Shown: one piece after another, positions 454-27,857 of the stretch
Numbering within the stretch: position 1 is the stretch's first letter
Layout of the letters: every line of letters starts with the position of its first letter
DNA from: Clostridiales bacterium
GTDB taxonomy: Bacteria > Bacillota > Sulfobacillia > Sulfobacillales > Sulfobacillaceae
Length of the DNA: 34,883 nt
Direction of reading: 5' to 3'
NCBI GenBank assembly: GCA_027365485.1
Contig: DAHXNH010000003.1
Span: 1-34,883, forward strand
The notes under the pieces: generated by a model
Told to the model about the DNA's origin: nothing
Databases searched by the model: none
The model's input: only the letters and a program-made list of their open reading frames with translations
Position numbers and translations under genes: made by a program

Positions 454-1822
454 CTAGGTGGCCTCGGGGTGAGGTTCCTGGGCGGGGTCGAAATCATCGT
501 AATACCAGGAGAGCGCGAAGAGCGCGTTGAGTAATTCCAGCCCTGCGCGTCCATACCCCCGTCGACGGACCATTTTGATTTTATTGTTGGTCCCCTCCAT
601 GGGTCCATTGCGAATGGCCGGATAGCGTAGGCAATTTTTCACTGCCTCTAAATCCTTTGGTAGTCCGGAGGCGAACACCACAATCGGTTCGGATGCGTCG
701 TGCTGATAGGTTGCAATGAATTGGTCGAGACCCGCCTCCTCGCTGGTATCCAGCATAGTTGTAAAGGTAGCTAGGCACGTCCGTAGCCGAGCCACGCTCG
801 GGAGCAGTTCTTCCAGGTGAGCATATCGCTCGGCGCTAAAGGCCTTGCTGGGCCCCGGAACCTTGGGGCGCGTATCGAAAATGATAGCGGCGGTGGCGTC
901 ATCGTATGTGGTCGTATTGACCCAGGGGGCGGGCACGGACGCCGTCTCTGGTTCCGTCAGAACCGAACTTGCGACTGAGACCAGGCCCGTTCGGGCCTGC
1001 AGGACCTTCGCCCGCTCTTGCGCGACTTCCTGGAATAGGCGTCGATAGATGGAGCCCCGAACAATCCGGATCAGACCAATCCTGGGCGGCCGAGCCTCTG
1101 CGTTTTCTTCGGGACGATCTTCGGACGGGTCGCCCGAAGCCAGGGCCTGTTCGCGCGTCTCTTTGAGCAAATATTGGTACACGGCGTTGGCACTCCCGGA
1201 ATAACCTTCCTTAAGTATCGCTGCATGTATGCTTCGGTGCCCCTCCCCTTGAGAGGCGAGGCGCAGGACGGTTTCGCGATAGGGCGCGACAATGGATTCC
1301 GACGCAGGTCGTGCCTCTAGCGCTAGCGTTTTTAGCGGGCTCGTGGAGGAAGGCGTGTGGAGATGGCTCGTCCAGGCATCGATTTTGCTTTCGACCTTCT
1401 CGAGGGTCTTTGGGGCCTCCTTGCGATACCGACGCAATGTCGCCCGCGTGATACCGAGACGGTCGGCCAGGCCCGCCGTTCGCAGGTCGCTGTCCGCGAG
1501 CTCGAGCAGGTTCAACGTCGTCCGATATTTTTGTGCTTGGCGCGCGGTGAGGGCAAAGCCCTCCGTCGGCTCCACGAAGGTGTAGACGGAACAATCTGTC
1601 TGGTCACAGACATATCGCATGCTGGTGACCGTGTGATACACGGCCTTCCCATCCAACGGAAAATCTTGCACCGTATGGTCGGTATACCGCTTGGCGGAGT
1701 GCCGACCATACGGTGTGGCAGACCGGGCACGTGGCCTGGTCCGACCGCGACCGCCATTGAAAGTACCAGCATTTTTCACCGCGTTCAACCTCCGTCAATC
1801 CCAAGTAACTCGGTATCGACAA
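454..1822 (-). pseudogene. ISL3-family transposase, frameshifted near its N-terminus
   Basis: The body (stop at 454) ends in the characteristic ISL3 C-terminus, NGPMEGTNNKIK followed by RRRGYGRAGLELL. It also carries an HTH (LGITRATLRRYRK) and a second IS21-like HTH region around YRETVLRLASQGEGHRSIH. The zinc-ribbon start (CPVC) is in a different frame, beginning at TTG 1822, so the gene needs a +1 (or -2) shift at about 1690-1735 to join CPVCHTV to HSAKRYTDHTVQDF. A 440-aa frame beginning at 1788 exists, but its first 35 residues are out-of-frame translation of the zinc-ribbon segment. I do not see a clear first and second catalytic Asp of a DDE domain in the middle. ISL3 elements normally move by cut-and-paste with this single protein; this copy is probably inactive. 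No matching terminal repeats were found. Confidence 0.75.
1669..1715. repeat. Perfect 14-bp inverted repeat at the ISL3 frameshift
   Basis: CACCGTATGGTCGG (1669-1682) is followed 19 bases later by its exact reverse complement (1702-1715). It lies where the two transposase frames must be joined. It may have caused the frame-breaking change by templated misalignment, or form a stem in the mRNA. Confidence 0.8.
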
Positions 1823-1828
1823 CCCATA

Positions 1829-1945
1829 TCAAAACTTCGCTAGCACCTCCATGAGGCGGGTGATGCTATCGAATCGACCGTCCAGTTTCGTAGCCTCGGT
1901 TCTAAAAAAGTCTTGCAATTGTTGGCTTAATCGTACGGAGTCCAT
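1829..1945 (-). CDS. Possible 38-aa helical peptide upstream of ISL3 transposase
   Basis: A short minus-strand frame starts at ATG 1945, with TAGGGA six bases upstream, and ends at TGA 1829-1831. It reads as an amphipathic helix (LSQQLQDFFRTEATKLDGRF). It is in the same frame as the zinc-ribbon start of the ISL3 transposase immediately downstream, separated only by the TGA, so it could be an original N-terminal extension, a leader peptide, or chance. The rest of 1946-2220 shows no gene, only AT-richer sequence between two opposed IS remnants. Confidence 0.22.
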   Translation of the reverse strand: MDSVRLSQQLQDFFRTEATKLDGRFDSITRLMEVLAKF

Positions 1946-2220
1946 AGCAATCCCTATCCCCTTGATGACATTTCTCTTCAGGATAGTCCATCGCGTCGAG
2001 CATGTTCAACGTATGATTTCGGTAATATTTGCATCGAACCGCCGTCGGGACAAATGACTCTGTTTTTACTTTATGGTTACTGGGTCAATTCTTAATAACA
2101 GAAAGTGCATAAGAGCCATCGATCGGTTATAGTGAACCTCTATCAGCAAAATTGAAGACGAGACGGTGGACTTTCGGTGTCTGTAGCCATGTCTCGTTCG
2201 GATGGAGGCGCTTTTGCGTT

Positions 2221-3353
2221 ATGGTCGATTTAGATGCACTGAACTGAGCTGGGCCTTCCGGTCTCCGGGACCGACTTGCGGTCTTGATTGACCCTCGCCA
2301 GAGGCGAGGAATCCGTTTTCCCTTAGAGGAAATTCTCCTATTGGCGATGGTAGCCGTGTTGACGGGCAAGCGATCGTATATCGCCATAAGCGACTGGATC
2401 CATGATCTGAGCCCCGAGTACCGCGAACGATTCGGCTGTCGACCCCGGGGATCCACGTTTAAGGTCCCCAGTGAACCGACCCTCCGCCGGACGTTGCAGA
2501 GCATCGATCGCGGGGCCTTTGACGCGGTTCTCAATGCGTGGTTGACCGAAGAATCTCGTCGACACGACGACGCTATTGCCGGGGTGGCAAAGCCTTACGA
2601 GGACCCGGGCACGGCCGCCGAAAGCGGCCGGTGCAATTGCTCGCTGCGTTGGGGCATGAGACCGGGCAAGTACTCGGACAAGTCGATGTCGACATCAAAA
2701 CGAACGAAATCCCGAAAATTAAAGATTTGCTCGATCCCTTAGACATTACGGACAAGGTCGTCACCACGGATGCTCTCCACACCCAAGTCGAGACGTCCCG
2801 GTATCTCGTCGAAGACAAACACGCCCACGACATCATGGAAGTCAAAAAGAACCAACCCAGCTTATACGAAGCTATCGAGGCGGTGCCCTTGGAAGACTAT
2901 TCCCGGCCGATGGTCACCCTCAATAAAGGGCATAACCGCATCGAACAACGGGTCGTGCGCACGTCGACCGTGCTCAATACTTACCTGGACTGGCCCTATG
3001 TGGGCCAGATCTTTCGAATTGACCGCCACGTGACCGACCTTGTGGGCGAACACCCTCGCGATGAAGTCGCCTTCGGCGTGACCGATTTGCGGCCGAAATC
3101 GGCTTCGAGCCAGCGAATCGGGAAGCTCGTGCGAGGGCACTGGCGCATTGAAACCCGGTTGCATTATGTTCAAGACGTGGCCTTTGACGAAGACCGAAGC
3201 CAGATCCGGACCGGGTCCGGTCAGCAAGTCATGGCGACACTCCGCAATATCGCCATCGGGTTAATCCGACGCATGAAATTACCCAATATCCAACGCACGC
3301 TCGAGCATCTTGGACGTCGGCCGGACCAAGTGTGTGCCTTACTCTTGAGCTAG
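2221..3353 (+). pseudogene. ISAs1-family transposase, one-base frameshift at first catalytic Asp
   Basis: The N-terminal part (from TTG 2284; DPRQRRGIRFPLEEILLLA) is the DDE_Tnp_1-associated domain of ISAs1 transposases. The C-terminal part (RPVQLLAALGHETGQVLGQ, then VVTTDALHTQ, then GHWRIETRLHYVQDV) is the DDE domain in the -1 frame. The break is at about 2578-2586. Family members there read AIAVDGKALRG; here the bases after ATTGCC give GGGGTGGCAAA, one base short, so the first catalytic Asp codon itself is gone. The second Asp (TTDALH) and the Glu (RIE) remain. An ATG at 2221 begins a plausible original N-terminus but meets a TGA at 2245. The gene is therefore doubly damaged and very probably dead. 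It diverges from the ISL3 remnant. No terminal inverted repeats were identified. Confidence 0.85.
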
Positions 3354-3863
3354 CTCCTTCGTCGACTTCATCCATCGTGGCCTTCATTGTCCCGGCATCG
3401 CGGCGGGCACTTTGCCATGCTCTCCACACATAGACCACCGGACCTCACTACCACTAGGGCCCGAACACCCCTCCATTCCGACGCCAGGGCCACATAGTCG
3501 CAATTGAAAGATAATTACTTTGACGGGCCTTGGCCCTACCTGTGGCGATGCGTTCGGCAACGGACGTGACGGGGTTCGGAGATCCTGCGCTTGATCGGGA
3601 GTCGGACTTCGACGGGAAAGTCACGCCTCTCAGAGACGAAGCGAGACCCGCTGGCTATAGGCTGGCGGCTTCGGGGCAGGAAGAATCTTGTGATCACCAA
3701 CGATCACAAGATTTATAGCAGGTCAACCAGCTATCACCACTACCTCCGCGACAGGGGAATTCGAATCAACGTCCATTGAACACGATCCTCACCAATCGGT
3801 GGTATGATGGCCCAAAAGACAGATTGCTCTAGGAATCTCGATAAGCAACCAAGGAGGTAGAAG
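3354..3863. other. 510-bp intergenic region upstream of GH172 gene
   Basis: Short overlapping open frames here (3530-3718, 3591-3779) have no family pattern and no ribosome site, so I treat the stretch as non-coding. It holds a perfect hairpin (3684-3713) and, nearer the gene, TATGAT at 3803-3808, a possible -10 box with only a poor -35 partner (TTGAAC 3777-3782, spacer too long). Confidence 0.5.
3684..3713. promoter_or_regulatory. Perfect 12-bp dyad, 6-base loop; operator or terminator candidate
   Basis: AATCTTGTGATC, then ACCAAC, then GATCACAAGATT. All twelve pairs match. There is no T-run on either side, which argues against an intrinsic terminator. It lies 150 bases before the GH172 gene, so an operator for a sugar-responsive regulator is one reading; a recombination-site core is another. 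Confidence 0.4.
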
Positions 3864-4937
3864 ATGGGTTATCAGGCGAGTTCACCGCTTTTTAATCTGC
3901 CGATGTTAGGCACAGGCCGCAGTCGCTCGGTCAGTCCTGAAAACTTCACCGGGGAGAAGGGCGGTGGAGGAAGAGCTACGGAAGGCACCGGGACACAGGC
4001 CGCACGCGATCTAGGCCAAGGCTGGAAGGTATCTCCTTCGATTGTAATTCAGCCCGAGGAGACCACCGTCCTGGCGGATATTGCCGGTAGCGGAGTGATC
4101 CAACATTTTTGGATCACCACCCATACCCAACACTGGCGCTCTCTAATTTTGGAAATGTTTTGGGACCAAGAATCTATCCCGTCAGTCCGCGTGCCGCTAG
4201 GCGATTTCTTTTGCCATGGCTGGTCCGAACCCGCCGGCATGCAGTCCCTGATGGTGGCGGTCAACCCGCGCGGAGGCTTTAACAGCTACTGGCCCATGCC
4301 ATTTCGCGACGGCGCCCGCATCGTCTTATCGAATGTCGGTCCTAAGGACGCGGTGGTTTATTACCAGATCGATTATTGTGCAGATACGGTTGCACCGGAG
4401 GCCGCCTATTTTCATGCCCAGTGGCGAAGAAGTCATCCGCTAGCAACCATGCAGTCCCATGTCATTGCGGACGAAATCCGCGGACAAGGTCATTGGGTTG
4501 GAACCTACTTGGCCTGGCAAACCAATCACACCGGGTGGTGGGGCGAAGGCGAAGTGAAATTTTATCTCGACGGGGATGACGAGTTCCCCACTATCTGCGG
4601 CACCGGGACCGAGGACTACTTTGGCGGAGCCTGGGATTTTGAGCAGCCCATCGGCCACTACCAAGCCTTTAGCGCTCCGTTTTCAGGGTTTCATCAAGTC
4701 ATTCAACCCGATGGTCTCTATCAGAGTCAAACTCGATTCGGCATGTACCGTTGGCACGTGGCCGATAGGATCCAATTTCAACAAGATCTCAAGGTCACCA
4801 TTCAAGCATTAGGCTGGCGAAAGGATGGTCGCTATTTGCCCTTGCAAGACGATATTGCATCCGTCGCCTACTGGTACCAATCCGAACCCCACCATCCATT
4901 AGCTGTGTTATCTCCCGATGAGTTAGACAATACTTAG
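3864..4937 (+). CDS. DUF2961 glycoside hydrolase, family GH172
   Basis: This 357-aa protein has the hallmarks of DUF2961, now CAZy family GH172: a WWGEGEVKFYLDGD block (residues 225-238) followed by GTGTEDYFGG (246-255), whose acidic residues are the likely catalytic carboxylates, and an N-terminal jelly-roll starting near residue 60. Characterised members act on alpha-D-fructofuranosides or D-arabinofuranosides; the substrate here cannot be read from sequence. No signal peptide is seen, so it probably works in the cytoplasm on imported oligosaccharide. Length is normal for a single-protomer member. The start is well supported by AAGGAGG at 3851-3857, seven bases before ATG. It converges on an isomerase-like and a dioxygenase-like gene, together suggesting a small sugar-catabolism island without its own transporter. 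Confidence 0.88.
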   Translation: MGYQASSPLFNLPMLGTGRSRSVSPENFTGEKGGGGRATEGTGTQAARDLGQGWKVSPSIVIQPEETTVLADIAGSGVIQHFWITTHTQHWRSLILEMFWDQESIPSVRVPLGDFFCHGWSEPAGMQSLMVAVNPRGGFNSYWPMPFRDGARIVLSNVGPKDAVVYYQIDYCADTVAPEAAYFHAQWRRSHPLATMQSHVIADEIRGQGHWVGTYLAWQTNHTGWWGEGEVKFYLDGDDEFPTICGTGTEDYFGGAWDFEQPIGHYQAFSAPFSGFHQVIQPDGLYQSQTRFGMYRWHVADRIQFQQDLKVTIQALGWRKDGRYLPLQDDIASVAYWYQSEPHHPLAVLSPDELDNT

Positions 4938-15456: not shown

Positions 15457-18400
15457 TTAAGGCTGAGTGATGTGGGCTTTGAGTGCGGATGCCACCGTCG
15501 ATTGAACGGCAGCTGAGCCTCCCAAGATCCACACGCCATGAATCGCTCGCTGGTGTCCGAGATAGGTCGACGTCGCTAGCGAGAGACTACCGGGACTGGT
15601 CAAAAGGATGGGAAGACCATCCAGTGCGGCCAAAGGCGCTCCGGTGAATGCATCCACAAACGAACTCGCTCCTTGGCCATTGGACGTGATAATGACTCCC
15701 GATGGCGCCGAATTTTGGTCAGGCGCAAACGCTACAGCTGTTTGCTCTCGGTTCTCGGCGCTGATTCGCGTCACCGAGGCGTTTTGGTCCAAAGACTGTA
15801 TCCCGTGCACCAACGCAGGCGACACCACTGTAGGTCCTCCCACGATGACCACGTGGGCGAACTGCGCTCGACTCAACCACAGCTGAGTCGCCTTCGGCAA
15901 CTCACTTTGCCCATCGGTCACCAGCACCACCGGAGCGCCCGATTGGTAGATGAGCGGGACGGCCCCGACCACGTCTTGCAAGGTCACCCCATTGGCCACA
16001 TACACCGTCGCCTGGGGACCGGCCGCCCCGTGGACCAGAACGTCATTGACCGCTTGACTCGTTACAAACTGATTCGCTCCAGGGAACACGGTCACCCCAA
16101 GGCCTGCGGATTTCAGAGTGGTGATAATCGCAGGGCCTACTGCCTGGGACCCTCCGACAATGTCCACCGTCTTCGCGCCTAACTGATGAATGGTCTCCAG
16201 ATCGCCAGCGCTTAGAGTCTTGGCCGTCGTCAATAACAGGGGAGCGTTAAGCCTTCCCGCCAGCCCTTCTGCTGACAGAACATCCGAACTGGGCGTACCT
16301 TGGCCGGCGTTGACCAACACCACCGTCGATGCACCATTCGGAAAGGCGATTTTAGCGGCGAGGATAGCGGTGTCTATGCGGGTATTGCCGCCAATGCGCT
16401 GAATCATGTTCTCCGTGGTCGCCGGTACGAGGGCAAAGGTACTCCAGTGCCGGGTGGTAAAACTGAGTGTGTCTTTTGACTCACGCACCGAAGGCACTGG
16501 AATCCACGAGTGCACCATCGGATTCCAATAAACGACCCCTTCCCCTTTAAACGTCTTAGTCGGCCACGTCACCGTCACCGTGCTTAACTGACTGACATAG
16601 GCTTGGGTGCCGCCCTGAGCAGTGAATCCCGCAATTCCAAACGAGAGCAAACTGCCCTCAGGCGCCGAAGGCGTTGTCGGAGACAGCACGACATGGGTCG
16701 TCATGCCCTGGGGAGTGGCCTGAGCGGGAATACTGACCTGAATCGATGGGCCGATGGGCGCGAGCGTGGTGACGGTTTCGGAACGGGAAAAGGCCCCCCG
16801 GTGGCCCTGATCGTCTGCTGCCACCGTTACGGCATAGGTGGTGTTTGGCATTTCTCCGGTCACCGTCCAACTGGGTGCCTTCGACGATCCGACGGTCTTG
16901 CCATTAATGGCTATCTGATAGCTGGTTGCTCCATAGACTGCATCCCAGGTTTGCTTCCAGCCGGTCGTGGTGATGGCTGTGGCCTTAAGCCCAGTGGGCG
17001 TCCCCAAATTTACGGTCAGGTCCGCAGGCACACTCGTCTGCCCGGTGGCATCGGTGACCGCGACCGTCGTGGAACCCAAGCGGAGATTGGCGGGTAACGT
17101 CGTCACAATGGACGTCGAGGTCCAAGTAATGAGCGCGGAGCCGCTTTGATCTATCGACTGTCCCGACTGATTAAAAACGACGGTGCCCGGTACTGTCCCG
17201 AAGTTCGAGCCGGTAACAGTCACGGTGTCACCAAGTTGATCGGTGGTGGGCATCACACTCGCGATTTGCGGCGAAGGAGGGGCCGAAATACTCAGCGCTA
17301 GGGTGGTCTGCAATTGATTGCCGCCAGCGTCTTTCGCTGTCACTGTGGCCGTATAGCTGCCATCCGTGGTCGGCGTGCCCGACAAGATACCACCGGCACT
17401 TAACCCCAGGCCCGGCGGCAATCCGGTCGCGCTCCACTGGATTCCTCCGGCGAAGTCAAACGCCTCCAAGGTCGTAGCCGGATACGGAGTCTCTGCCACG
17501 GTCGATGGTGGAGTCACCGACTGCACAACGGCCAGGTAAGGCATTCCTCCGTTCACCGAAGGTGCTATGGCCCAAGGGCCGCCTTGGGCCAGAAATGACC
17601 ATCCGGCAAACGTGATCTGATTCTCCAAGGCCCCAGTCGCCTCCCCGGTCGTCGTCCCTCCGGTGGGCAAGGTATCCTCGCCAAAAGCTACAGTATTGCC
17701 TGACGAGGTATTAAAGTACGATTGTTGTACCGTCCCTCCGGCAAAATACCCGACCAGTCCTCCGCTGTCTAACGATCCGGTGGCTAATCCAGTCGCGTAG
17801 GTATCCGTAATGGTTCCGTACGACTGGCCCACCAGACCCCCATTTTCATTAGTGCTCGAGACCGTTCCGGTGGCATATGCCTCCTCAATCGTGCCGCCTG
17901 GCTGGTAACCGACGAGTCCCCCCGCATAATAAGTCGCTCCATTGCCGGTCACCGAACCGGTGGCATAACTTTGGCTGACCGTTCCTCCGGATTCGTCCCC
18001 AATCAGCCCTCCTAAGGACCCGCCTTGGGAAGTGGAAGTGGACCCGGTCAAGGAGACGCTACCGGTAGACCCGGTATCTTGGATGGTCCCGTTGGAGCCT
18101 CCAACTAATCCGCCCACCGACGAGTAACTACTTGCCGTGACCGTCGCAGCCGATTCGCTATCGACCACCACCGCCGAAGTCCCAATACTGCCCGCCAGTC
18201 CTCCGGCGCTGGCTTGGGTACCGCCGGTCACCGTACCATTGCCTTGGACATTGGTGAATTGACCGGAGGTCAGGACCCCGGCTAACAGACCCAGGTTGGC
18301 TTGGGGAGCGGTATCCTCTACCTGACCGGACACACTCAAATTTTCCACGGTCCCAGAAACCGCCCCGAAGAGACCCGCTTGGCCGGTCCCAACCGACACT

Positions 18401-18744
18401 TGGAGTCCAGTAATCGCATAGCCTTGGCCATTAAAAACTCCAGCAAATGGGGTTGCCCCATTGCCACCCAAGGGCGTCCAAGGGGATCCCGCCAGATCGA
18501 CGGATTGGGTTAATTCAATGTGATCGTTGAGATACGCGGTGGGGTTTCGATCCAGGTACACCAATTGCGCGGCGGTAGAAATCGCTATCCAAGCCACTCC
18601 ATCGATGGTCGTCGCAGGCAAAGGAGGATTAGCGGCGTTGACCAATGCTCCTCCCCATCCAACCATACTGAACAGGGCCACAGCGCCGCCTAGCCCACTG
18701 GCTAGAAATCGCTGCCGGATGCCCATTGACTGCTTATTTAGCAC
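15457..18744 (-). CDS. Secreted surface protein with GLUG repeats and CWB2 domain
   Basis: The protein (about 1095 aa) begins with a signal peptide (RQRFLASGLGGAVALFSMVG, cleavage probably after VNA). Residues about 85-340 contain many GLUG-like repeats (GGLVG, then SYATG phrases). A putative-Ig block follows (LPPGLGLSAGGILSGTPTTDG, about 425-482), then an IPT/TIG domain (VTGSNFGTV, about 495-585), an FN3-like domain (about 580-658) and, from about 779, three cell-wall-binding repeat 2 units (IQRIGGNTRIDTA, VDIVGGSQAVGP, HVVIVGGPTVV, VWILGGSAAV). CWB2 triplets anchor proteins to secondary wall polymers in Gram-positive bacteria; the front repeats suggest an adhesive or S-layer-associated role. 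I chose GTG 18744 because AAGAAGGGA lies nine bases upstream; an upstream TTG (18783) is less likely. Confidence 0.88.
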   Translation of the reverse strand: MLNKQSMGIRQRFLASGLGGAVALFSMVGWGGALVNAANPPLPATTIDGVAWIAISTAAQLVYLDRNPTAYLNDHIELTQSVDLAGSPWTPLGGNGATPFAGVFNGQGYAITGLQVSVGTGQAGLFGAVSGTVENLSVSGQVEDTAPQANLGLLAGVLTSGQFTNVQGNGTVTGGTQASAGGLAGSIGTSAVVVDSESAATVTASSYSSVGGLVGGSNGTIQDTGSTGSVSLTGSTSTSQGGSLGGLIGDESGGTVSQSYATGSVTGNGATYYAGGLVGYQPGGTIEEAYATGTVSSTNENGGLVGQSYGTITDTYATGLATGSLDSGGLVGYFAGGTVQQSYFNTSSGNTVAFGEDTLPTGGTTTGEATGALENQITFAGWSFLAQGGPWAIAPSVNGGMPYLAVVQSVTPPSTVAETPYPATTLEAFDFAGGIQWSATGLPPGLGLSAGGILSGTPTTDGSYTATVTAKDAGGNQLQTTLALSISAPPSPQIASVMPTTDQLGDTVTVTGSNFGTVPGTVVFNQSGQSIDQSGSALITWTSTSIVTTLPANLRLGSTTVAVTDATGQTSVPADLTVNLGTPTGLKATAITTTGWKQTWDAVYGATSYQIAINGKTVGSSKAPSWTVTGEMPNTTYAVTVAADDQGHRGAFSRSETVTTLAPIGPSIQVSIPAQATPQGMTTHVVLSPTTPSAPEGSLLSFGIAGFTAQGGTQAYVSQLSTVTVTWPTKTFKGEGVVYWNPMVHSWIPVPSVRESKDTLSFTTRHWSTFALVPATTENMIQRIGGNTRIDTAILAAKIAFPNGASTVVLVNAGQGTPSSDVLSAEGLAGRLNAPLLLTTAKTLSAGDLETIHQLGAKTVDIVGGSQAVGPAIITTLKSAGLGVTVFPGANQFVTSQAVNDVLVHGAAGPQATVYVANGVTLQDVVGAVPLIYQSGAPVVLVTDGQSELPKATQLWLSRAQFAHVVIVGGPTVVSPALVHGIQSLDQNASVTRISAENREQTAVAFAPDQNSAPSGVIITSNGQGASSFVDAFTGAPLAALDGLPILLTSPGSLSLATSTYLGHQRAIHGVWILGGSAAVQSTVASALKAHITQP

Positions 18745-19415
18745 ACCGTTTCTTCCCTTCTTAATTGACGGTTCACTGTTCAATAATCAGAATCATCGAT
18801 CCCAGATTCAGCCTACCATAAAAAGCATTCTGTGTGCTCGACACGGTTTAACACACCCCGCGCAGGCAACCTGCGTCGGTTTTGCCACTCTATTGCGTCC
18901 TTGGTCGATTTCCGAGAGGCAAGGGTTAACCTTACAGTCGTGGTTGAGGCTGCGAAGTCCTGCTGCGAAAACCGAAAATCATCTTTCAGGCTCCCAACCA
19001 CGCGGGGTTCAGGGTTCTCAATCTGACTTCTTGAGACTTCAGCACCAGGTCCCTAAACTTGGCCGCACGTAGGCGGCATGCGCCTTCACTGTAATGGGGA
19101 GGAGTTGGCCCGCTCCGTGGCAACTCCTCCATGAAGGCTGACGCCCCACCTCCCCCCAATGACTCCTTGCCTTCATGACCCCAAGTGGAGCGCTATCTCC
19201 GATGCCGTGCGCAAGGTCGGACCCCCCTTAAAGATAGGTCGAATCGGCGAGCCCTCTCATTCAACCGCCCTCAGAGCGCCTTCAAGCATCAGGCCCGTCA
19301 TCGGTGAAGGACGCGTCTATCTCTGGCGCACGGTCCGCATCTCCTCCTTCACGAGAAATATCGACCCCGGCCTCAGGCCATACCCCCGCTCATCCTCCAG
19401 CGAGTCTTGGTTCGG
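18745..19415. other. 671-bp gap between two minus-strand surface genes
   Basis: No gene can be supported. It must contain the CWB2-gene promoter near its left end and a hairpin at 19082-19138. A plus-strand frame from 19159 begins like an IS5-type N-terminus (LHDPKWSAISDAV) but gives no further match. Confidence 0.5.
19082..19138 (-). terminator. Bipartite hairpin downstream of the D,D-peptidase gene
   Basis: GGAGGAGTTG (19098-19107) pairs perfectly with CAACTCCTCC (19121-19130), and outside it GCCTTCA (19082-19088) pairs with TGAAGGC (19132-19138), with unequal bulges. It is 280 bases past the peptidase stop and has no T-run, so the terminator role is tentative. Confidence 0.4.
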
Positions 19416-22187
19416 TCAAGAGAGCACTTTCGCAGTGAAATGCCGATTCCAAAGCTGTTCGCTCATCATCACGGTCACAGCGTAGACTGCTCCCGTCGAT
19501 GATTTGATGTAACCCGCCAGAGCATACTCCTCAGGGCTCTCGGTTTTCCAAAGCGACTGACTTAATAAGCGGGTCAGTGGCTCCTCCTCGGGATTGTTCC
19601 AGGCTTGGGTCAATAACGCACTGATTCCAGCGGGCGTGAGGTAATTCCCCATTGCCGCCCCAGTGGGCTCCACGAGATCGTTGGGCTCAGAACCCAGCAC
19701 CCGAGCAATGTCGGGCCAAAGATTAAGACCCAACGCGTTGGCCACGTCCTCTGACGGCGCGATATTGGCGGTCGCCAACATGGCGTTCACCTGGTCCGCC
19801 AGAGTGGGACCTGGGGTGACAGCAATCACTTTGGCCATGGGCAGCGGTGTGCCGATGTCGGCGATGGTTCCCTTGACCGTTACCCCATAGGATCGCAAAT
19901 CTTTGAGGAACACACTGGCCGCATAGAGACCCGGATCAGGCGGAGCAATGTCCAAAGTCACAGACGACCCTTTAGGCATGGAGCCCGTCAACACGTAAAT
20001 GTGGCTGGCAAATTTGAGACGGGCGGTCACTGTATTCGCCCCACCGTCTGTCGTGGCTGTCAGGTTTTGCACGCGAATCGGAGTCAGCGAAGGCATCACC
20101 GTGACTCGAGCCGCTTGTCCTATCTTGCCAGCACTGATCACAATTTGTGCTTGGTCGTCGTTGGCTATCAGAGTTGACCAAGGCGGCGTCCAACCCTTGC
20201 CAAAGTCATTCCAGGCCATGCCACTCGGCCAGCGACTCGCATGAAAACCGGTGATTGCGTTGACATATTCGAGGTCGCCATCGACCGTGCTAATTCCGGA
20301 CGCTCGCACCCGCTCCGCCATGGCCGCTAAGTTGGAGAACGTCAAAGCGGAGTCGTCGTGGCCATCGAGCACCAGGTTCCCGCTCAAGACGGCCGCGTGC
20401 ACCGATCCGGTTTCGGCCACCGTCGCTGAATTTGGAGGGTTTGGATGATAGGCCAGAGCGGCATCGGCCAAAATCAGTCGCGGTAACAACCCCGAGTCCA
20501 TTAAGATATTACCGTTGTCCTGCCATACGGTCTTACCGCTCTTCACGTTCACGATCGAAGCGCCGACGATGCTTCCCGGCGACACTGCAGGAAGTTGGTC
20601 TGAAACCTTTGACCATAAGAGAGTGCCCAGCCTCGTGGACGTCAAAGCGGATGGAGCGCCCGCAGCCGAGATTGTTGGAACGCCGGGCCAAAAGGCTGTG
20701 TCTGCCATCATCTGATCGACGGCTGAACCGCGATAGGCATTGTCACTCGTCGGAGTGCCGTCGTCCAAAATTGCGAAGGCTATCAAATTTCCGTTTTCCG
20801 CCTTGGCAAACCCGGCGTAGTTCCATTGATTACTAAGGTTTCCCGTCTTTACCCAAATGTCCGTATGAGTCGGCAGGTTGTACGACCAGGCTGGAGGGCA
20901 TAAAATGCCACAATGATTGGGGTCGTTCAAGTGCATCAGGGAATTGCGAAACGTCTTATACCACGGTTGCCGAGAAACGTACGCCAGCAGCGACACCACT
21001 TCTTCAGCGCTGGTTTCATCGAGAGGTGAAAGGCCTGAACCGTCGACTTGCACGCGATCGCGCGAAATGCCGGCCTTAGCCGAAAACGCTTGCATAAAAG
21101 CCGACGCATGCGCCAGCGATCCGACACCGTGACTGGCCACTCCGAGTTCGCGATACAAATTCTCTGCCATCTGGTTAATCGAGTATTGGTTTTGAATTTG
21201 CAAATCGGCGGCTAAATTCGCCGAAGAATGCGTGGCTAGGGTAATCGCCGTGGGGGGAACTTGAGACGCCACCGAAGCTGACGATGCAAACCGCACGCCG
21301 TCCTCCGCCAGGGCCTGTTGGAATAACGCGGCGGCAAAGAGCGGAGGATCTCCAATCGACAGCACTGCCGCCGATGAAGTGGGCGTGGAACTCGCGCTAA
21401 GAGGAATGCTCCCGCTGACTACGATTTGATTCGTGCCGATACGGCGATTGATGACAATGGTGTCGGCGGTGGCTGCGGTTCCGGTAGTGGCTCGATTCAC
21501 CACCTGAAAGTAAGACGGCATAGTCAATCCACCATTAAACGATAAATCCACCACCGGACGAGTGCCGACCTGTCCGCCCTGAGTCACGTTGACAAAGACT
21601 TCGCTGCGCTCGGCCATCAAGGCCGTGGTCCCGGCCGCATAGTTCTGGGAAAGAGCCCCATAAGGCCACCCGATGCCGTAGATCGGGGCTGTGAACAAAG
21701 AACTTACCCCTACCACCGAGGTTGCCCGTTTCACGACTTTCGCCACCTTGGCCGCTAACGCTTCCAGATTGGTGGCACCGTTGGCTTCAAGCCACGGATC
21801 GCCTCCCCCTTGGAGATAAATCGCACCACTGCCCCGGGCCAGAGTGGTTGGGGTAGCTTTGACGGTGGTTTGATAGGTAAAGTGTGGTCCCAAGAGCGAC
21901 AGGGCAGCCGCCGAGGTGAATAATTTGGTCACCGACGCCGGCGTCTCTCGCTGTTGGGGATGAATGGCCGCCAAAACCTGGCCGGTGCTCAAATCGTAGG
22001 CATAAGCCGACACGCTGGAGTGAACCAATCCAGGATACCCCAGGAGATGGTCCCAGGCTGTATTCAAAGAATTTGGAGCTAACCCCGTGGATGCTTTTGG
22101 AATCGATTGCGCAAAACTGATACTGGTCAGAGATAAGAGCATGGCGACTGAGGTCACACTAATCCAAGCGGTCAGACGGCGACGCAT
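19416..22187 (-). CDS. D-Ala-D-Ala carboxypeptidase (PBP4/S13) with a degenerate second domain
   Basis: The precursor (923 aa) has an N-terminal signal sequence (RRRLTAWISVTSVAMLLSLT). Residues about 45-510 form a full peptidase S13 domain: SVTK (Ser85-Lys88), SIN (336-338) and KTG (447-449), with VDGSGLSPLDETS between. Residues about 535-910 repeat the same architecture, but the motifs are changed: the SxxK position reads SGLL (565-568), the SxN position reads SED (812-814), and KTG reads KSSTG (from 895). The second half is thus a likely pseudo-enzyme for substrate binding or interdomain regulation. S13 enzymes trim peptidoglycan stem peptides outside the membrane. At roughly 920 aa it is about double the usual 400-500. 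Start ATG 22187 is chosen since AGGAGG lies nine bases upstream; an upstream TTG would include that site. Confidence 0.88.
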   Translation of the reverse strand: MRRRLTAWISVTSVAMLLSLTSISFAQSIPKASTGLAPNSLNTAWDHLLGYPGLVHSSVSAYAYDLSTGQVLAAIHPQQRETPASVTKLFTSAAALSLLGPHFTYQTTVKATPTTLARGSGAIYLQGGGDPWLEANGATNLEALAAKVAKVVKRATSVVGVSSLFTAPIYGIGWPYGALSQNYAAGTTALMAERSEVFVNVTQGGQVGTRPVVDLSFNGGLTMPSYFQVVNRATTGTAATADTIVINRRIGTNQIVVSGSIPLSASSTPTSSAAVLSIGDPPLFAAALFQQALAEDGVRFASSASVASQVPPTAITLATHSSANLAADLQIQNQYSINQMAENLYRELGVASHGVGSLAHASAFMQAFSAKAGISRDRVQVDGSGLSPLDETSAEEVVSLLAYVSRQPWYKTFRNSLMHLNDPNHCGILCPPAWSYNLPTHTDIWVKTGNLSNQWNYAGFAKAENGNLIAFAILDDGTPTSDNAYRGSAVDQMMADTAFWPGVPTISAAGAPSALTSTRLGTLLWSKVSDQLPAVSPGSIVGASIVNVKSGKTVWQDNGNILMDSGLLPRLILADAALAYHPNPPNSATVAETGSVHAAVLSGNLVLDGHDDSALTFSNLAAMAERVRASGISTVDGDLEYVNAITGFHASRWPSGMAWNDFGKGWTPPWSTLIANDDQAQIVISAGKIGQAARVTVMPSLTPIRVQNLTATTDGGANTVTARLKFASHIYVLTGSMPKGSSVTLDIAPPDPGLYAASVFLKDLRSYGVTVKGTIADIGTPLPMAKVIAVTPGPTLADQVNAMLATANIAPSEDVANALGLNLWPDIARVLGSEPNDLVEPTGAAMGNYLTPAGISALLTQAWNNPEEEPLTRLLSQSLWKTESPEEYALAGYIKSSTGAVYAVTVMMSEQLWNRHFTAKVLS

Positions 22188-22931
22188 AGAAAAAACCCTC
22201 CTCAATAGGTACCCTACGGCCGAAATTTAGTGCACGAGCATCCCGCCGTCAAACACCGAAGCCCCTCGTTTCATGGGCGATATGATCGGGCAATCTTTCA
22301 TTCGGTCGTCCACGGGCGCTTTCGTTAGGGAAGTTTGACTGAATGAGGCAAGCAGATGGCGAGACCGGCCCCGTGCCTCAGCCCATGACCGATGAAGAGG
22401 GCCCCACCGCTTACTTGCAGAGCCGGTCCCATTTGGATCACCTGTCCCTGATTTTACGATCCAGAATGGATCGCTCGAAGCTCTTTCCGACCATGACTCT
22501 CGATAAAACGTGATAAATATCTGCGAAATGGCGATTGACCCTTTGGTCATCAATGCTGGACCTCTGGTGTCAGTTTACGCCCAAGAATGCACCCCCTGGG
22601 GAGACCATCCATGCCAAACTCTTTATTTCTCGAAACATTGCCTATATCCCTTTTCGCCCACGCTCTTTTTCTCATGGAAAACCTTGGACTTTTTGGTCCT
22701 GTTCGCAACCAAAAGACCTTGGATCTACCTTCCGCGATGACGATGGCGACCTTATCTCGGCGGATTGCCCGACATTCTAGCTTTGACATCGTTGTTAAGA
22801 TATTACGCATTGAATAGAGGGGTTCAGGGTGTCTTGTCGAAGTTTGTAGAATAAAGATTATCAGTCAACCATTAGAGGGCCAAGCCTCTAGATCGCTGAG
22901 GCATTCTAGCCCACGGAAGAGGATCGCAGCA
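22188..22931. other. 744-bp divergent intergenic region
   Basis: It separates the minus-strand peptidase from the plus-strand GGDEF-EAL gene and must carry both promoters. Several overlapping frames (22227-22553 minus, 22535-22780 plus, 22550-22810 minus) are open, none with a ribosome site or recognisable family. I see no strong hairpin or repeat. Confidence 0.5.
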
Positions 22932-25379
22932 ATGAGCACTTTTTATGACGATACTGCCCATGCGTCACAATCATTGGAGCAATCATTGCTTGACATGACT
23001 CCCGATGGCATCTTTTTGCTCGACCGGGAGGGAACAATGTTACATAGCAACGCCGCTTGCTCTAGGCTCTTCGAGTACAGTGCGGACGAGCTTAAGCAGC
23101 TTTCGTTTATTCACGTGGTTGCCAAGAGCCACCAAAGTTTGGCCCGGTCTATCTTCGAGCGGACGCTCGACGGGCGCCCGCAACAGGCAGAACTCCTGGT
23201 CGAAACCAAGTCCCATCGGGTCGTCACAGTCGGGGTGCAGACGATACCCTACCGAGTCGACGACAAGACTCTTGGAGTCGTCGGAATCGCTCAGGACTTG
23301 GATCGCATGCACTCTATGGAACAGACGTTGGGAGATAGCGAAAGCTTGCTTCGCTTAGTGATGCGTTTGGCCCATGTTGGACGTTGGGTGTGGAACGACG
23401 AACGCCAAGAAGTTGAAGCTTCTCCCGAACTCTTTGAACTCATGCGCTGGGACCCGGTCAAGGATGATTCGATGACCGTGGAAGCTTTCATCCAAAGCAT
23501 CGCCCCCGACGATCAAGCCATTGTCGAAGCGGCGTTGGCCCGGGCAATTGCGCACCACACAGCGATGTCGGTTCAGTTTCGTTTGAACCATGGCCCAAGT
23601 ACCCGCGTCTATCTAGCTATGGCCGAACCACGCTTCAATGCCATAGGCACCTTCATGGGCCTAATCGGAATGGTTCAGGATATCACCGAATTCAACCGCC
23701 TGTCGGAACGGCAACAACAGTTGGCAGCTGTATTTGAACATAGTCGTGATTTAGTAATCGTGGCCGACCTCGATGGCTTCGTGCGTTACGCGAATCGCAC
23801 CTGCCGACTCACCTTGGGATTTGACGAATTGGAGGGGTTGAAGGATGTCCGGTTATCCGACCTCCGCCGAAATGCCGACCCGCACACCCTGAACCACCAA
23901 TTGCAGGCGGCGATGGACCATGGTGCTTGGCGAGGAGACCTCTGGCTGAAGCATCGTGACGGTCACAGCATTCCCGTATCCACGGTCATTCAATGTCATC
24001 GCGACGATAGCGGGCGTCCTCGATTTTTTTCCGGTGTCGCGCGTGACGTGACCCATGAACGTGCTCTCGAAGAACATATTCGCTATCAAGCCGACCATGA
24101 CACCTTGACGGGATTGCTAAATCGTCGGCGGTTTACCGAACTCCTAAATGCCTATCTTACGTCGTTGCCTGCCGATGGACATGCCACCGTGGGCTTTATC
24201 GATCTCAACGACTTCAAACACATTAATGACATTCACGGTCATTCGGTGGGGGACCGGCTCTTGGCCGAAGTTGCGTCCAGACTCTCGGCGCATTTCGACC
24301 AACCTCAAATTCTCGCCCGATGGGGGGGCGACGAATTTACCTTCTGGTTGCCAGACGCCAACACGAGCGAAGCGGTCGGTTGGCTCGACTGTTTGATACC
24401 GGACCTCGAACGCTCCTACTTGGTCAACGATACTCCGTTTGAATGTATTCCTGCCGTAGGGTTATCGGTATTCCCGGAAGACGGCCAGGATGTAGAGACC
24501 TTAGTGCGCAAAGCGGACGCAGCCATGTTCGAAGCGAAGCGCCGAGGGACCTCGTATGTCTTTCATACCCAAGCGATGACTGCCGAGGCGGATGAGCGCA
24601 AAGAGACCCGCGAAGCTATCCGAAACGGCATCCGCAGTCAAGAATTTGTGGCCTACTTTCAACCCATCGTGACAGCCGCTTCGCAGTCGCTGGAAGGCGC
24701 TGAGGCGCTCGCCCGCTGGAACCATCCTATCCGTGGCGTGCTTGCCCCATCGGAGTTCATGGCCGAAGCCGAGCGCTCGGCCCTCATTGTCCCCTTGGGC
24801 CTTCATATGCTCGAACTAGTTGGAATGGCGCTGGGCCAATGGCGGCAATCCGGTCTCACCGCTATCCGGATTGCGGTCAACTTCTCAGCACGCCAATTGG
24901 CCCAAGACGACCTTGCCGATACCGTGCACCATATTTGCCAACGATATGGCATCGATCCGCGCTGGGTGGAATGCGAAATTACCGAAACCGCCATCCTCGA
25001 GAACTACGACTTAGCTCGGCGCACTCTAGACAATCTCCGCATGCGTGGGTTTCGCATTGTCTTGGATGACTTTGGTACGGGATATTCCTCACTCAGCCAT
25101 CTGCGCGATCTTCCCATCGATGGCATCAAACTGGACCGCTCGTTTGTCGACCAGCTACCCGACCATCCACGGGAGACTGCCATCGCCCGGTCTACCATTC
25201 GGTTGGCGCATGACCTCAACCTCACCGTAACCGCGGAGGGCGTAGAAACCGAAACCCAAGCCCAATTCCTCATCCGCGAAGGTTGTGACTTGCTTCAAGG
25301 ATACGGGATCAGCCGTCCGCTGCCTCCCGACAAATTCATAAGCTGGCGCCAAACTTATCAACCCGGGGCTATTGGCTAA
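22932..25379 (+). CDS. PAS-PAS-PAS-GGDEF-EAL cyclic-di-GMP protein
   Basis: The 815-aa cytoplasmic protein has three PAS-type sensor segments (about residues 15-130, 140-250 and 265-385), a diguanylate cyclase domain (about 390-540) and an EAL phosphodiesterase domain (about 560-805). The cyclase signature RWGGDEF is intact, and no RxxD inhibitory site stands five residues before it. The EAL domain keeps its main catalytic and metal motifs: EALARW, ETAILENY, LDDFGTGYSSL, IKLDRSF, AEGVET and the final LLQGYGISRPL. Both activities are therefore possible; many such hybrids work in one direction set by the sensor. There are no membrane segments, so the PAS domains should sense an internal cue. 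ATG 22932 follows GAAGAGGA. The last 11 bases overlap the convergent gene. Confidence 0.93.
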   Translation: MSTFYDDTAHASQSLEQSLLDMTPDGIFLLDREGTMLHSNAACSRLFEYSADELKQLSFIHVVAKSHQSLARSIFERTLDGRPQQAELLVETKSHRVVTVGVQTIPYRVDDKTLGVVGIAQDLDRMHSMEQTLGDSESLLRLVMRLAHVGRWVWNDERQEVEASPELFELMRWDPVKDDSMTVEAFIQSIAPDDQAIVEAALARAIAHHTAMSVQFRLNHGPSTRVYLAMAEPRFNAIGTFMGLIGMVQDITEFNRLSERQQQLAAVFEHSRDLVIVADLDGFVRYANRTCRLTLGFDELEGLKDVRLSDLRRNADPHTLNHQLQAAMDHGAWRGDLWLKHRDGHSIPVSTVIQCHRDDSGRPRFFSGVARDVTHERALEEHIRYQADHDTLTGLLNRRRFTELLNAYLTSLPADGHATVGFIDLNDFKHINDIHGHSVGDRLLAEVASRLSAHFDQPQILARWGGDEFTFWLPDANTSEAVGWLDCLIPDLERSYLVNDTPFECIPAVGLSVFPEDGQDVETLVRKADAAMFEAKRRGTSYVFHTQAMTAEADERKETREAIRNGIRSQEFVAYFQPIVTAASQSLEGAEALARWNHPIRGVLAPSEFMAEAERSALIVPLGLHMLELVGMALGQWRQSGLTAIRIAVNFSARQLAQDDLADTVHHICQRYGIDPRWVECEITETAILENYDLARRTLDNLRMRGFRIVLDDFGTGYSSLSHLRDLPIDGIKLDRSFVDQLPDHPRETAIARSTIRLAHDLNLTVTAEGVETETQAQFLIREGCDLLQGYGISRPLPPDKFISWRQTYQPGAIG

Positions 25380-26538: not shown

Positions 26539-26666
26539 CTTGGACCTCCCTTTCGGCCGCAGGAAGCGATTCATCTCGGCCACGCCACCTGGAACCTTTT
26601 TTCTTCACGAAACATATGGGAAAAGGGTAGCACACTTGTGAAACCCCGAGAGGAGCGCTTATCTAT

Positions 26667-27857
26667 ATGGCATTGTTCGACTCCACCTTTGCTCCCTATG
26701 AGCCATTTGGCAGCAGAAACCTTAGCCTCGGCAGCCACGGCACCGACGTGGCCGTGCTCCAGGCGGTTTATGATCTGATGCTGAAGATGATGACCCCCCC
26801 TGGGGGCCCGATGGGGGATCCCATCTCCATCAGCGGCACCTTCGACGCTGATACCAAAACTGCGGTCGAGAACATTCAAAGCTATTTTGGCTTGGTCGTC
26901 GACGGAGTGGTCGGCGCCGAGACGTTTTTTGTCTTTGGCCAAGGGGTCGGGCCCCATCAAACTTACGGCGGACCCGTCTTCGGTAGCCGCGCCTTGTCCG
27001 AAGGGATGGCTGGCGGCGACGTCACCATTTTGCAAAACCGTCTCAACTGTTTCCAATACGCCACCATCCTGGATGGACCCGCCACGGGGACGTTTGACAC
27101 TGCGACCGGGGCCGCCGTCGCCGCCTTTAAAGCCTCGGCATCCTCCAACGGTGACACCGGATTTCCCAACAACCAAATTGCCGGATTCGGCTATTACGAT
27201 GCCAACTGGATCTATACCTTTGCTGGCGGTCGGGCGATTTTTTCTGGTCGCAACGGCTTTGACGTGGTCTTTATTCAAAGCATCTTAACGACGTTAGATT
27301 ACTACACAGGCGATATCTCTGGCTACTACGACAACGCCACCGAATCCGCCGTCGAAGCGTTCCAGGCCGCACAAGGCATCAGCAACGACGGGGTGGTCGG
27401 TCCCGTCACTTTCTATTACCTCGGTCTCAAAAACCCCAAACCCGCCCCGGATCCTTTGGGGATAGCCTGGCCGCCCACCATCGTGACCGAATGCTCCGTA
27501 GCGTTAAGCTCTATCGTCAGCGATGTCAATGCTTCGTTTGGAGTAGCTTCTCTGGCCGCCAGTTCTTACCAAGCGGGCCAATGGCTCAATGTCGTCGGCG
27601 ACAACCTTCCCAGTCCCGACATATTTGGCAGTAATTTCACCACCTACGCGTTTACCTTATCCGACGCCACCACCGGCGCGGTGAGTTCCGCCCAAGTCAT
27701 GTTGGTAGTCCCTTCCGGCCCGGGGACATGGGCTGGCACCATGGAAAACGCTAGCGGCGATTTCACTCCCGGGCTGGTCAACGTCTATCCCAGTAATCCT
27801 ACCGGTTCCCTGTTGGGCACGGCGATCTTAGAGGGAAATCTCGTCAATTGTAAGTAA
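26667..27857 (+). CDS. Protein with three peptidoglycan-binding-like repeats
   Basis: The 396-aa protein contains three PG_binding_1-like units, at about residues 20-92 (SHGTDVAVLQ to DGVVGAETFF), 108-170 (AGGDVTILQNRLN to TGFPNN) and 195-255 (GFDVVFIQSILT to DGVVGPVTFYYLG). The C-terminal 120 residues look like an Ig-type beta domain (LNVVGDNLP, then TWAGTMENASG). There is no typical signal peptide (it starts MALFDSTFAPYEPFG) and no hydrolase domain. It may leave the cell by another route, act in the spore or mother cell, or be a binding or scaffold protein. It is divergent from the propeller gene across 128 bases. GAGAGGA lies about 12 bases before ATG. Confidence 0.8.
   Translation: MALFDSTFAPYEPFGSRNLSLGSHGTDVAVLQAVYDLMLKMMTPPGGPMGDPISISGTFDADTKTAVENIQSYFGLVVDGVVGAETFFVFGQGVGPHQTYGGPVFGSRALSEGMAGGDVTILQNRLNCFQYATILDGPATGTFDTATGAAVAAFKASASSNGDTGFPNNQIAGFGYYDANWIYTFAGGRAIFSGRNGFDVVFIQSILTTLDYYTGDISGYYDNATESAVEAFQAAQGISNDGVVGPVTFYYLGLKNPKPAPDPLGIAWPPTIVTECSVALSSIVSDVNASFGVASLAASSYQAGQWLNVVGDNLPSPDIFGSNFTTYAFTLSDATTGAVSSAQVMLVVPSGPGTWAGTMENASGDFTPGLVNVYPSNPTGSLLGTAILEGNLVNCK

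Follow-up and report, generated by a model that had tools for sequence, protein, structure and literature searches.

One protein encoded in the window (the whole stretch of 34,883 nucleotides that was analysed) carries the peptidase S13 fold twice, and the question raised by this locus is what the second copy is for if only the first has a working active site. The host genome belongs to the Bacillota, and its nearest named relatives are Sulfobacillus-type metagenome-assembled genomes. PF02113 (Peptidase_S13) is found twice in the protein by Pfam search; in a search of the whole genome the two halves score 194.6 and 102.6 bits against a cut-off of 22.8, and no S13 match besides these is listed. 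The NCBIfam label for the protein is PBP4, an annotation at the family level that conceals its active/dead tandem architecture.

Gene layout and the intact first half

The open reading frame lies on the minus strand from 19416 to 22205 and has an internal ATG at 22187 (Table 1). The first-pass annotation had placed the start at this ATG, a choice upheld by the strong ribosome-binding site in front of it. Residues are numbered from the TTG at 22205; numbering from the ATG is obtained by subtracting 6. The N-terminus resembles a signal peptide, and the protein is probably exported.

Table 1. Features of the tandem S13 gene and its product (window positions; residues in brackets)
Feature	Position	Strand	Basis or remark
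Tandem S13 coding sequence	19416..22187	-	923 aa counted from ATG; ORF opens at TTG 22205
Ribosome-binding site GAGGAGGG	22196..22203	-	8 nt before ATG; read directly
Probable Sec signal peptide	22104..22187	-	Charge-positive start, hydrophobic core, ...SFAQS; end approximate; read from translation by eye
First S13 half (47-500), catalytic motifs intact	20706..22067	-	Pfam; Z 40.1 to 1w5d, 441 aligned
SVTK (91-94), catalytic S91 and K94	21924..21935	-	Alignment
SIN motif (342-344)	21174..21182	-	Alignment
KTG motif (453-455)	20841..20849	-	Alignment
Variable short linker (501-524)	20634..20705	-	Mean pairwise identity 27%
Second S13 half (525-929), predicted catalytically dead	19419..20633	-	Profile, Foldseek, VIA-align, predicted model
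LLPR (573-576), SxxK position	20478..20489	-	Arg invariant in 30/30 of fused family; profile and MAFFT alignments
ANI (813-815), SxN position	19761..19769	-	Profile and MAFFT alignments
TES (888-890), KTG position	19536..19544	-	MAFFT alignment; register less sure here

The first half covers positions 7-442 of the 444 in the S13 profile, and domains II and III are inserted between its SxxK and SxN motifs, the arrangement used to define S13/class C1 enzymes in the available text of PMC4604126. SxxK, SxN and K[TS]G occur in the order expected of an S13/class C1 PBP; the three motifs that the first-pass annotation had read as SVTK, SIN and KTG are thus all present. In a MAFFT alignment of 29 first halves the catalytic Ser, the catalytic Lys and SxN are each intact in 28, with L108 the sole first half lacking SxxK and SxN; the third column reads KTG in 22, KPG in five, KSG in one and AAG in one. 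The KPG variant is found in L027, L028, L030, L033 and L037, where the motifs are otherwise intact; it is unusual for a DD-peptidase, and altered substrate or beta-lactam recognition may be involved.

Fold and motif positions of the second half

The two halves are about 21% identical to each other, and a plain BLASTP comparison of the first with the second gives no match (best E 7.3). The second half was nevertheless said beforehand to repeat the S13 layout, and this is borne out by several methods: a profile built from 19 second halves matches PBP4a with an E of 3.7e-40; the structure predicted for residues 518-929 with 18 homologues (pLDDT 87.4, pTM 0.83) aligns to PBP4a (1w5d) in VIA-align with Z 33.0 and an rmsd of 3.6 over 390 residues; and Foldseek with the same model gives a best E of 1.4e-30, to R39. 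Together with the PF02113 score these results rule out a chance resemblance. The top-scoring matches are without exception PBP4-type proteins. Domains II and III are included in the predicted fold, and the matches fall in S13 and the wider beta-lactamase/DD-peptidase fold and nowhere else.

The motifs of this half were counted in 31 sequences, comprising 17 class-level loci read whole (the window, L021-L028, L030, L032-L037 and L039), L029 and L031 from Alicyclobacillus, L047, L048, L052, L053, L057 and L064 from the class family f33, L080-L083 and L111 from the Alicyclobacillales, and L108; L111 and L064 contributed second halves only, and the fragments L017, L020, L038, L063, L071 (G003, broken contigs) and L112 (G590) were left out. 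The profile alignment to PBP4a pairs the catalytic Ser with L573 and the catalytic Lys with the conserved R576. Across the 31 second halves the Ser column holds Leu in 21, Trp in nine and Gly in one, and the Lys column holds Arg in 30 and Gly in one, so that every second half of the fused family (30 of 30) has Leu or Trp for the catalytic Ser and Arg for the catalytic Lys. Neither SxN nor K[TS]G is found at the aligned columns in any of the 31, which have no Asn and no Lys there, and both positions are unconserved. No Lys and, among Ser residues, only S915 is conserved in at least 17 of the 19 aligned rows; the invariant polar and aromatic residues include R576, Y647, T857, W886 and Y899.

The second half accordingly lacks all of the motifs of an active S13 enzyme (SxxK, SxN and K[TS]G) and is predicted from its sequence to be unable to acylate. 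The first-pass annotation was right to call this half dead and wrong in the equivalents that it proposed: SGLL starts two residues ahead of the catalytic Ser column, SED aligns with the 'AEN' just after the SIN of the first half, and KSSTG sits in the strand after KTG. With the columns corrected to L573, R576, ANI and TES the half is more clearly dead than had been described, and the homologues that might have kept the motifs have not done so, as catalytic Ser and Lys are absent in 31 of 31. The description of an active/inactive pair in one chain therefore stands on both sequence and modelling, as an intact and a motif-less S13 fold.

Distribution, ancestry and selection

The spread of the gene was sampled in the Bacillota (the class and the Alicyclobacillales) and in one plasmid collection. 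Among 154 genomes of the class, 26 have S13 matches well above short weak cross-matches; 24 of these carry the fused family, G106 has a single S13 only, and G093 has a single S13 together with a divergent tandem. Seven of 59 Alicyclobacillales genomes have such matches and all seven are tandem, with that of G590 split between contigs. The search that had been proposed for the same two-domain layout in related genomes is thus answered in 24 of the 26 S13-bearing class genomes and in 7/7 Alicyclobacillales. The gene is patchy: within the family to which the window's genome belongs, 15 of 34 genomes have it. Its carriers among named species are Alicyclobacillus acidiphilus, A. mengziensis and Sulfobacillus harzensis. 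In the class and Alicyclobacillales searches the first half of the fused family is never found alone, contig-end fragments in G003, G094 and G590 aside, and no internal stop codon falls inside any listed match.

A reversed tandem and a spread on plasmids were both rejected. L109 (G106), a candidate for the former, is treated as a single S13: the first ~620 aa of its open frame resemble an arginine-rich translation in the wrong frame, and a signal peptide comes after them. Ten plasmid records match and are read as single S13 matches; the two that cover more than 80% of the query do so through two pieces in one 1407-base stretch.

The divergent tandem of G093, L108 (G093:C73:11500-16000, frame 1036-3909), is a 958-aa protein in which neither half retains the motifs, the first-half positions reading PGVAWG, PSP and AAG; in the tree it has long branches and its placement is unsure. 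G093 also has a single S13 with intact motifs, L040, on another contig.

In the tree all 31 second-half rows fall on the same side of one branch (support 97/77), the tandem first halves form a group of 28 with 100/100 support, and the Alicyclobacillales rows do not form one clade. This topology indicates that the fusion is old and may have passed between lineages. The distance matrices of the halves are correlated (Mantel r 0.873 for 28 proteins; 0 of 9999 permutations), and the second half evolves faster, with a mean pairwise distance of 0.647 versus 0.480 and a mean identity of 37.4% versus 55.2% for the first; by domain, identity within the second half is even (38.8, 37.3 and 36.8%).

Values of dN/dS were obtained with our own Nei-Gojobori-type script and are rough, several pairs having very high dS; they range from 0.083 to 0.318 for the second half in 7/7 pairs and from 0.088 to 0.243 for the active half over seven pairs, one of them saturated, and in the closest pair they are 0.182 for the dead half and 0.243 for the active half. 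The low values for the dead half point to its maintenance by purifying selection and, with its retention in relatives, argue that the second lobe is functional. Being conserved in both the Sulfobacillus-type Bacillota and the Alicyclobacillales, the dead half is not a peculiarity of this one locus.

The genomic context offers no conserved operon: none of the neighbouring gene families recurs in over five of 20 neighbourhoods (the window and L021-L039), and recurrent neighbours, which include an aldo/keto reductase, a GntR regulator, an oligopeptide-binding protein and a GNAT acetyltransferase, have no cell-wall link; as no neighbour is widely common, the context is silent on a pathway. Several genes near the S13 gene may be recorded in their own right. 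A 1108-aa protein at 15457-18783 (-) has three CWB2 cell-wall-binding repeats and a GLUG motif, and is mostly without a counterpart in the closest relative, L021, which is otherwise collinear; nucleotide matches to L021 end at about 15025 and restart in pieces from 18364. A PAS-GGDEF-EAL cyclic-di-GMP protein at 22932-25379 (+) is divergent from the S13 gene, and in both L021 and L022 a homologue of it adjoins the S13 gene. A protein with three PG_binding_1 domains is encoded at 26667-27857 (+); an opposite-strand open frame at 26571-27278 overlaps its gene.

Possible roles of the second half

It is tentatively proposed, by analogy with PBP4 dimers and at a little less than an even chance, that the dead half serves as a substrate-holding pseudo-partner of the active half. 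The N-terminal half is predicted to be a DD-carboxypeptidase/endopeptidase of the PBP4a type in an exported class C1 PBP; the C-terminal half, a second S13 fold predicted to be incapable of acylation, would correspond, in fused form, to the second protomer of a PBP4 dimer, docked on the active half and adding peptidoglycan binding or positioning. This contribution may replace the PBP4a-like lysine-rich membrane-attachment surface, which is seemingly absent from both halves.

The full-length predicted model has a pTM of 0.79 over 884 residues, higher than would be expected if two domains of equal size had no fixed orientation to each other, and this suggests docking. Against the proposal, four of the five full-length models have lower pLDDT (73.7-76.6), and residues 130-240 of the full-length model are largely poor. 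E. coli PBP4 is mainly dimeric by ultracentrifugation, and an inactive domain-3 deletion of it still dimerises and sediments with sacculi, as stated in the available sections of PMC9166362. PBP4 of M. tuberculosis is described as a monomer in the portion available of PMC10815838; a dimer is then not required in the PBP4 family, which counts against a pseudo-partner, as does the faster evolution of the second half. Domains II and III hold on average 3.8 Lys in the first half and 3.4 in the second, versus 12.5 in 11 single S13 proteins; most of their Lys columns are not retained in the tandem halves, where Arg may form a cluster in place of Lys. Bacillus PBP4a binds the membrane through a lysine cluster in domain II (PMC4604126, in the text available), and the tandem protein, with few Lys in either half, may therefore have to be positioned by some other means; the low Lys content and charge may also be just an adaptation to an acid exterior.

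The remaining explanations are each less favoured. That the dead half is a structural stabiliser, serving folding, secretion or acid stability with no contact to substrate, is unlikely but deserves to be kept in view: the named hosts belong to Sulfobacillus and Alicyclobacillus, which are acidophilic spore-formers, and conserved positions in the second half are distributed about equally among its domains instead of clustering at the cleft, yet a whole extra S13 fold, domains II and III included, is a costly stabiliser, and many relatives of the same family manage with no S13 protein at all. A regulatory gate, in which the dead half covers or opens the active cleft, perhaps when a ligand binds in the remodelled second cleft with the invariant Arg at its centre, is slightly less likely still. 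All 30 of 30 members of the fused family have Arg (R576) where the catalytic Lys would stand, conservation is higher in the short LLPR helix (51.8%) than over the whole second half (37.4%), and the high pTM of the full-length model suggests defined docking; the unconserved SxN and KTG positions, however, indicate that the ancestral cleft has not been preserved in its entirety, a structural role could account for the invariant Arg, and the ligand is purely hypothetical. A bolder and improbable form of regulation would make the dead half a fused allosteric peptidoglycan sensor, its Arg-rebuilt cleft binding a muropeptide and switching the active half on or off; if true, a single secreted chain would combine enzyme and receptor, and G093, with its doubly dead tandem and its separate active single S13, would look like a genome in which these two functions had been divided among genes. 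A different catalytic activity is very unlikely: the several invariant polar and aromatic residues would suit one, but the second half has no conserved Ser-Lys pair and its fold matches stay within S13 and its wider fold. A functionless duplicate decaying towards loss, as the absence of every motif and a rate above that of the first half might suggest, is scarcely credible given the low dN/dS in every pair, the intact frames of the listed matches and a first half that, contig-end fragments apart, is never seen alone in the fused family across the class and Alicyclobacillales searches.

The tandem protein can be compared with known S13 enzymes. PBP4a of Bacillus subtilis (DacC, 1w5d) aligns with the first half over its full length with all motifs, and the second half has its fold including domains II and III; PBP4a is a single S13 unit with a lysine-rich domain II (PMC4604126, available text), whereas the tandem protein has two units per chain, the second motif-less and both Lys-poor. 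The DD-peptidase of Actinomadura R39 (1w79), the second-best VIA-align fold match of both halves, differs in being a single unit with intact motifs. E. coli PBP4 (DacB, 2ex2) has the same fold, and its homodimer, as presented in the sections available of PMC9166362, is the nearest functional analogy; it consists of two identical active subunits rather than a fused active/dead pair. The domain layout of Pseudomonas PBP4 is given in the part available of PMC5054556, and the survey in PMC2605481, in its available text, covers S12 and not S13. S13 enzymes, PBP4 dimers and pseudoenzymes are already known; searches of an open-access literature library listed no description of a tandem or dead S13 protein, and as far as these searches show the fused active/dead S13 pair is undescribed. 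Degenerate domains of the LytM/EnvC and carboxypeptidase D types are cases of a dead enzyme relative kept as a partner or domain, in folds unrelated to S13.

To our knowledge the contribution of the second subunit in PBP4-type dimers is unclear, and a natural fusion with one unit switched off offers a way to ask what a non-catalytic S13 unit contributes; changing or removing the dead half alone would leave catalysis intact, and the named carrier species open the tandem protein to experimental testing. The locus presents an enzyme/pseudoenzyme fusion in a drug-target fold that is common to Sulfobacillus-type bacteria and the Alicyclobacillales.
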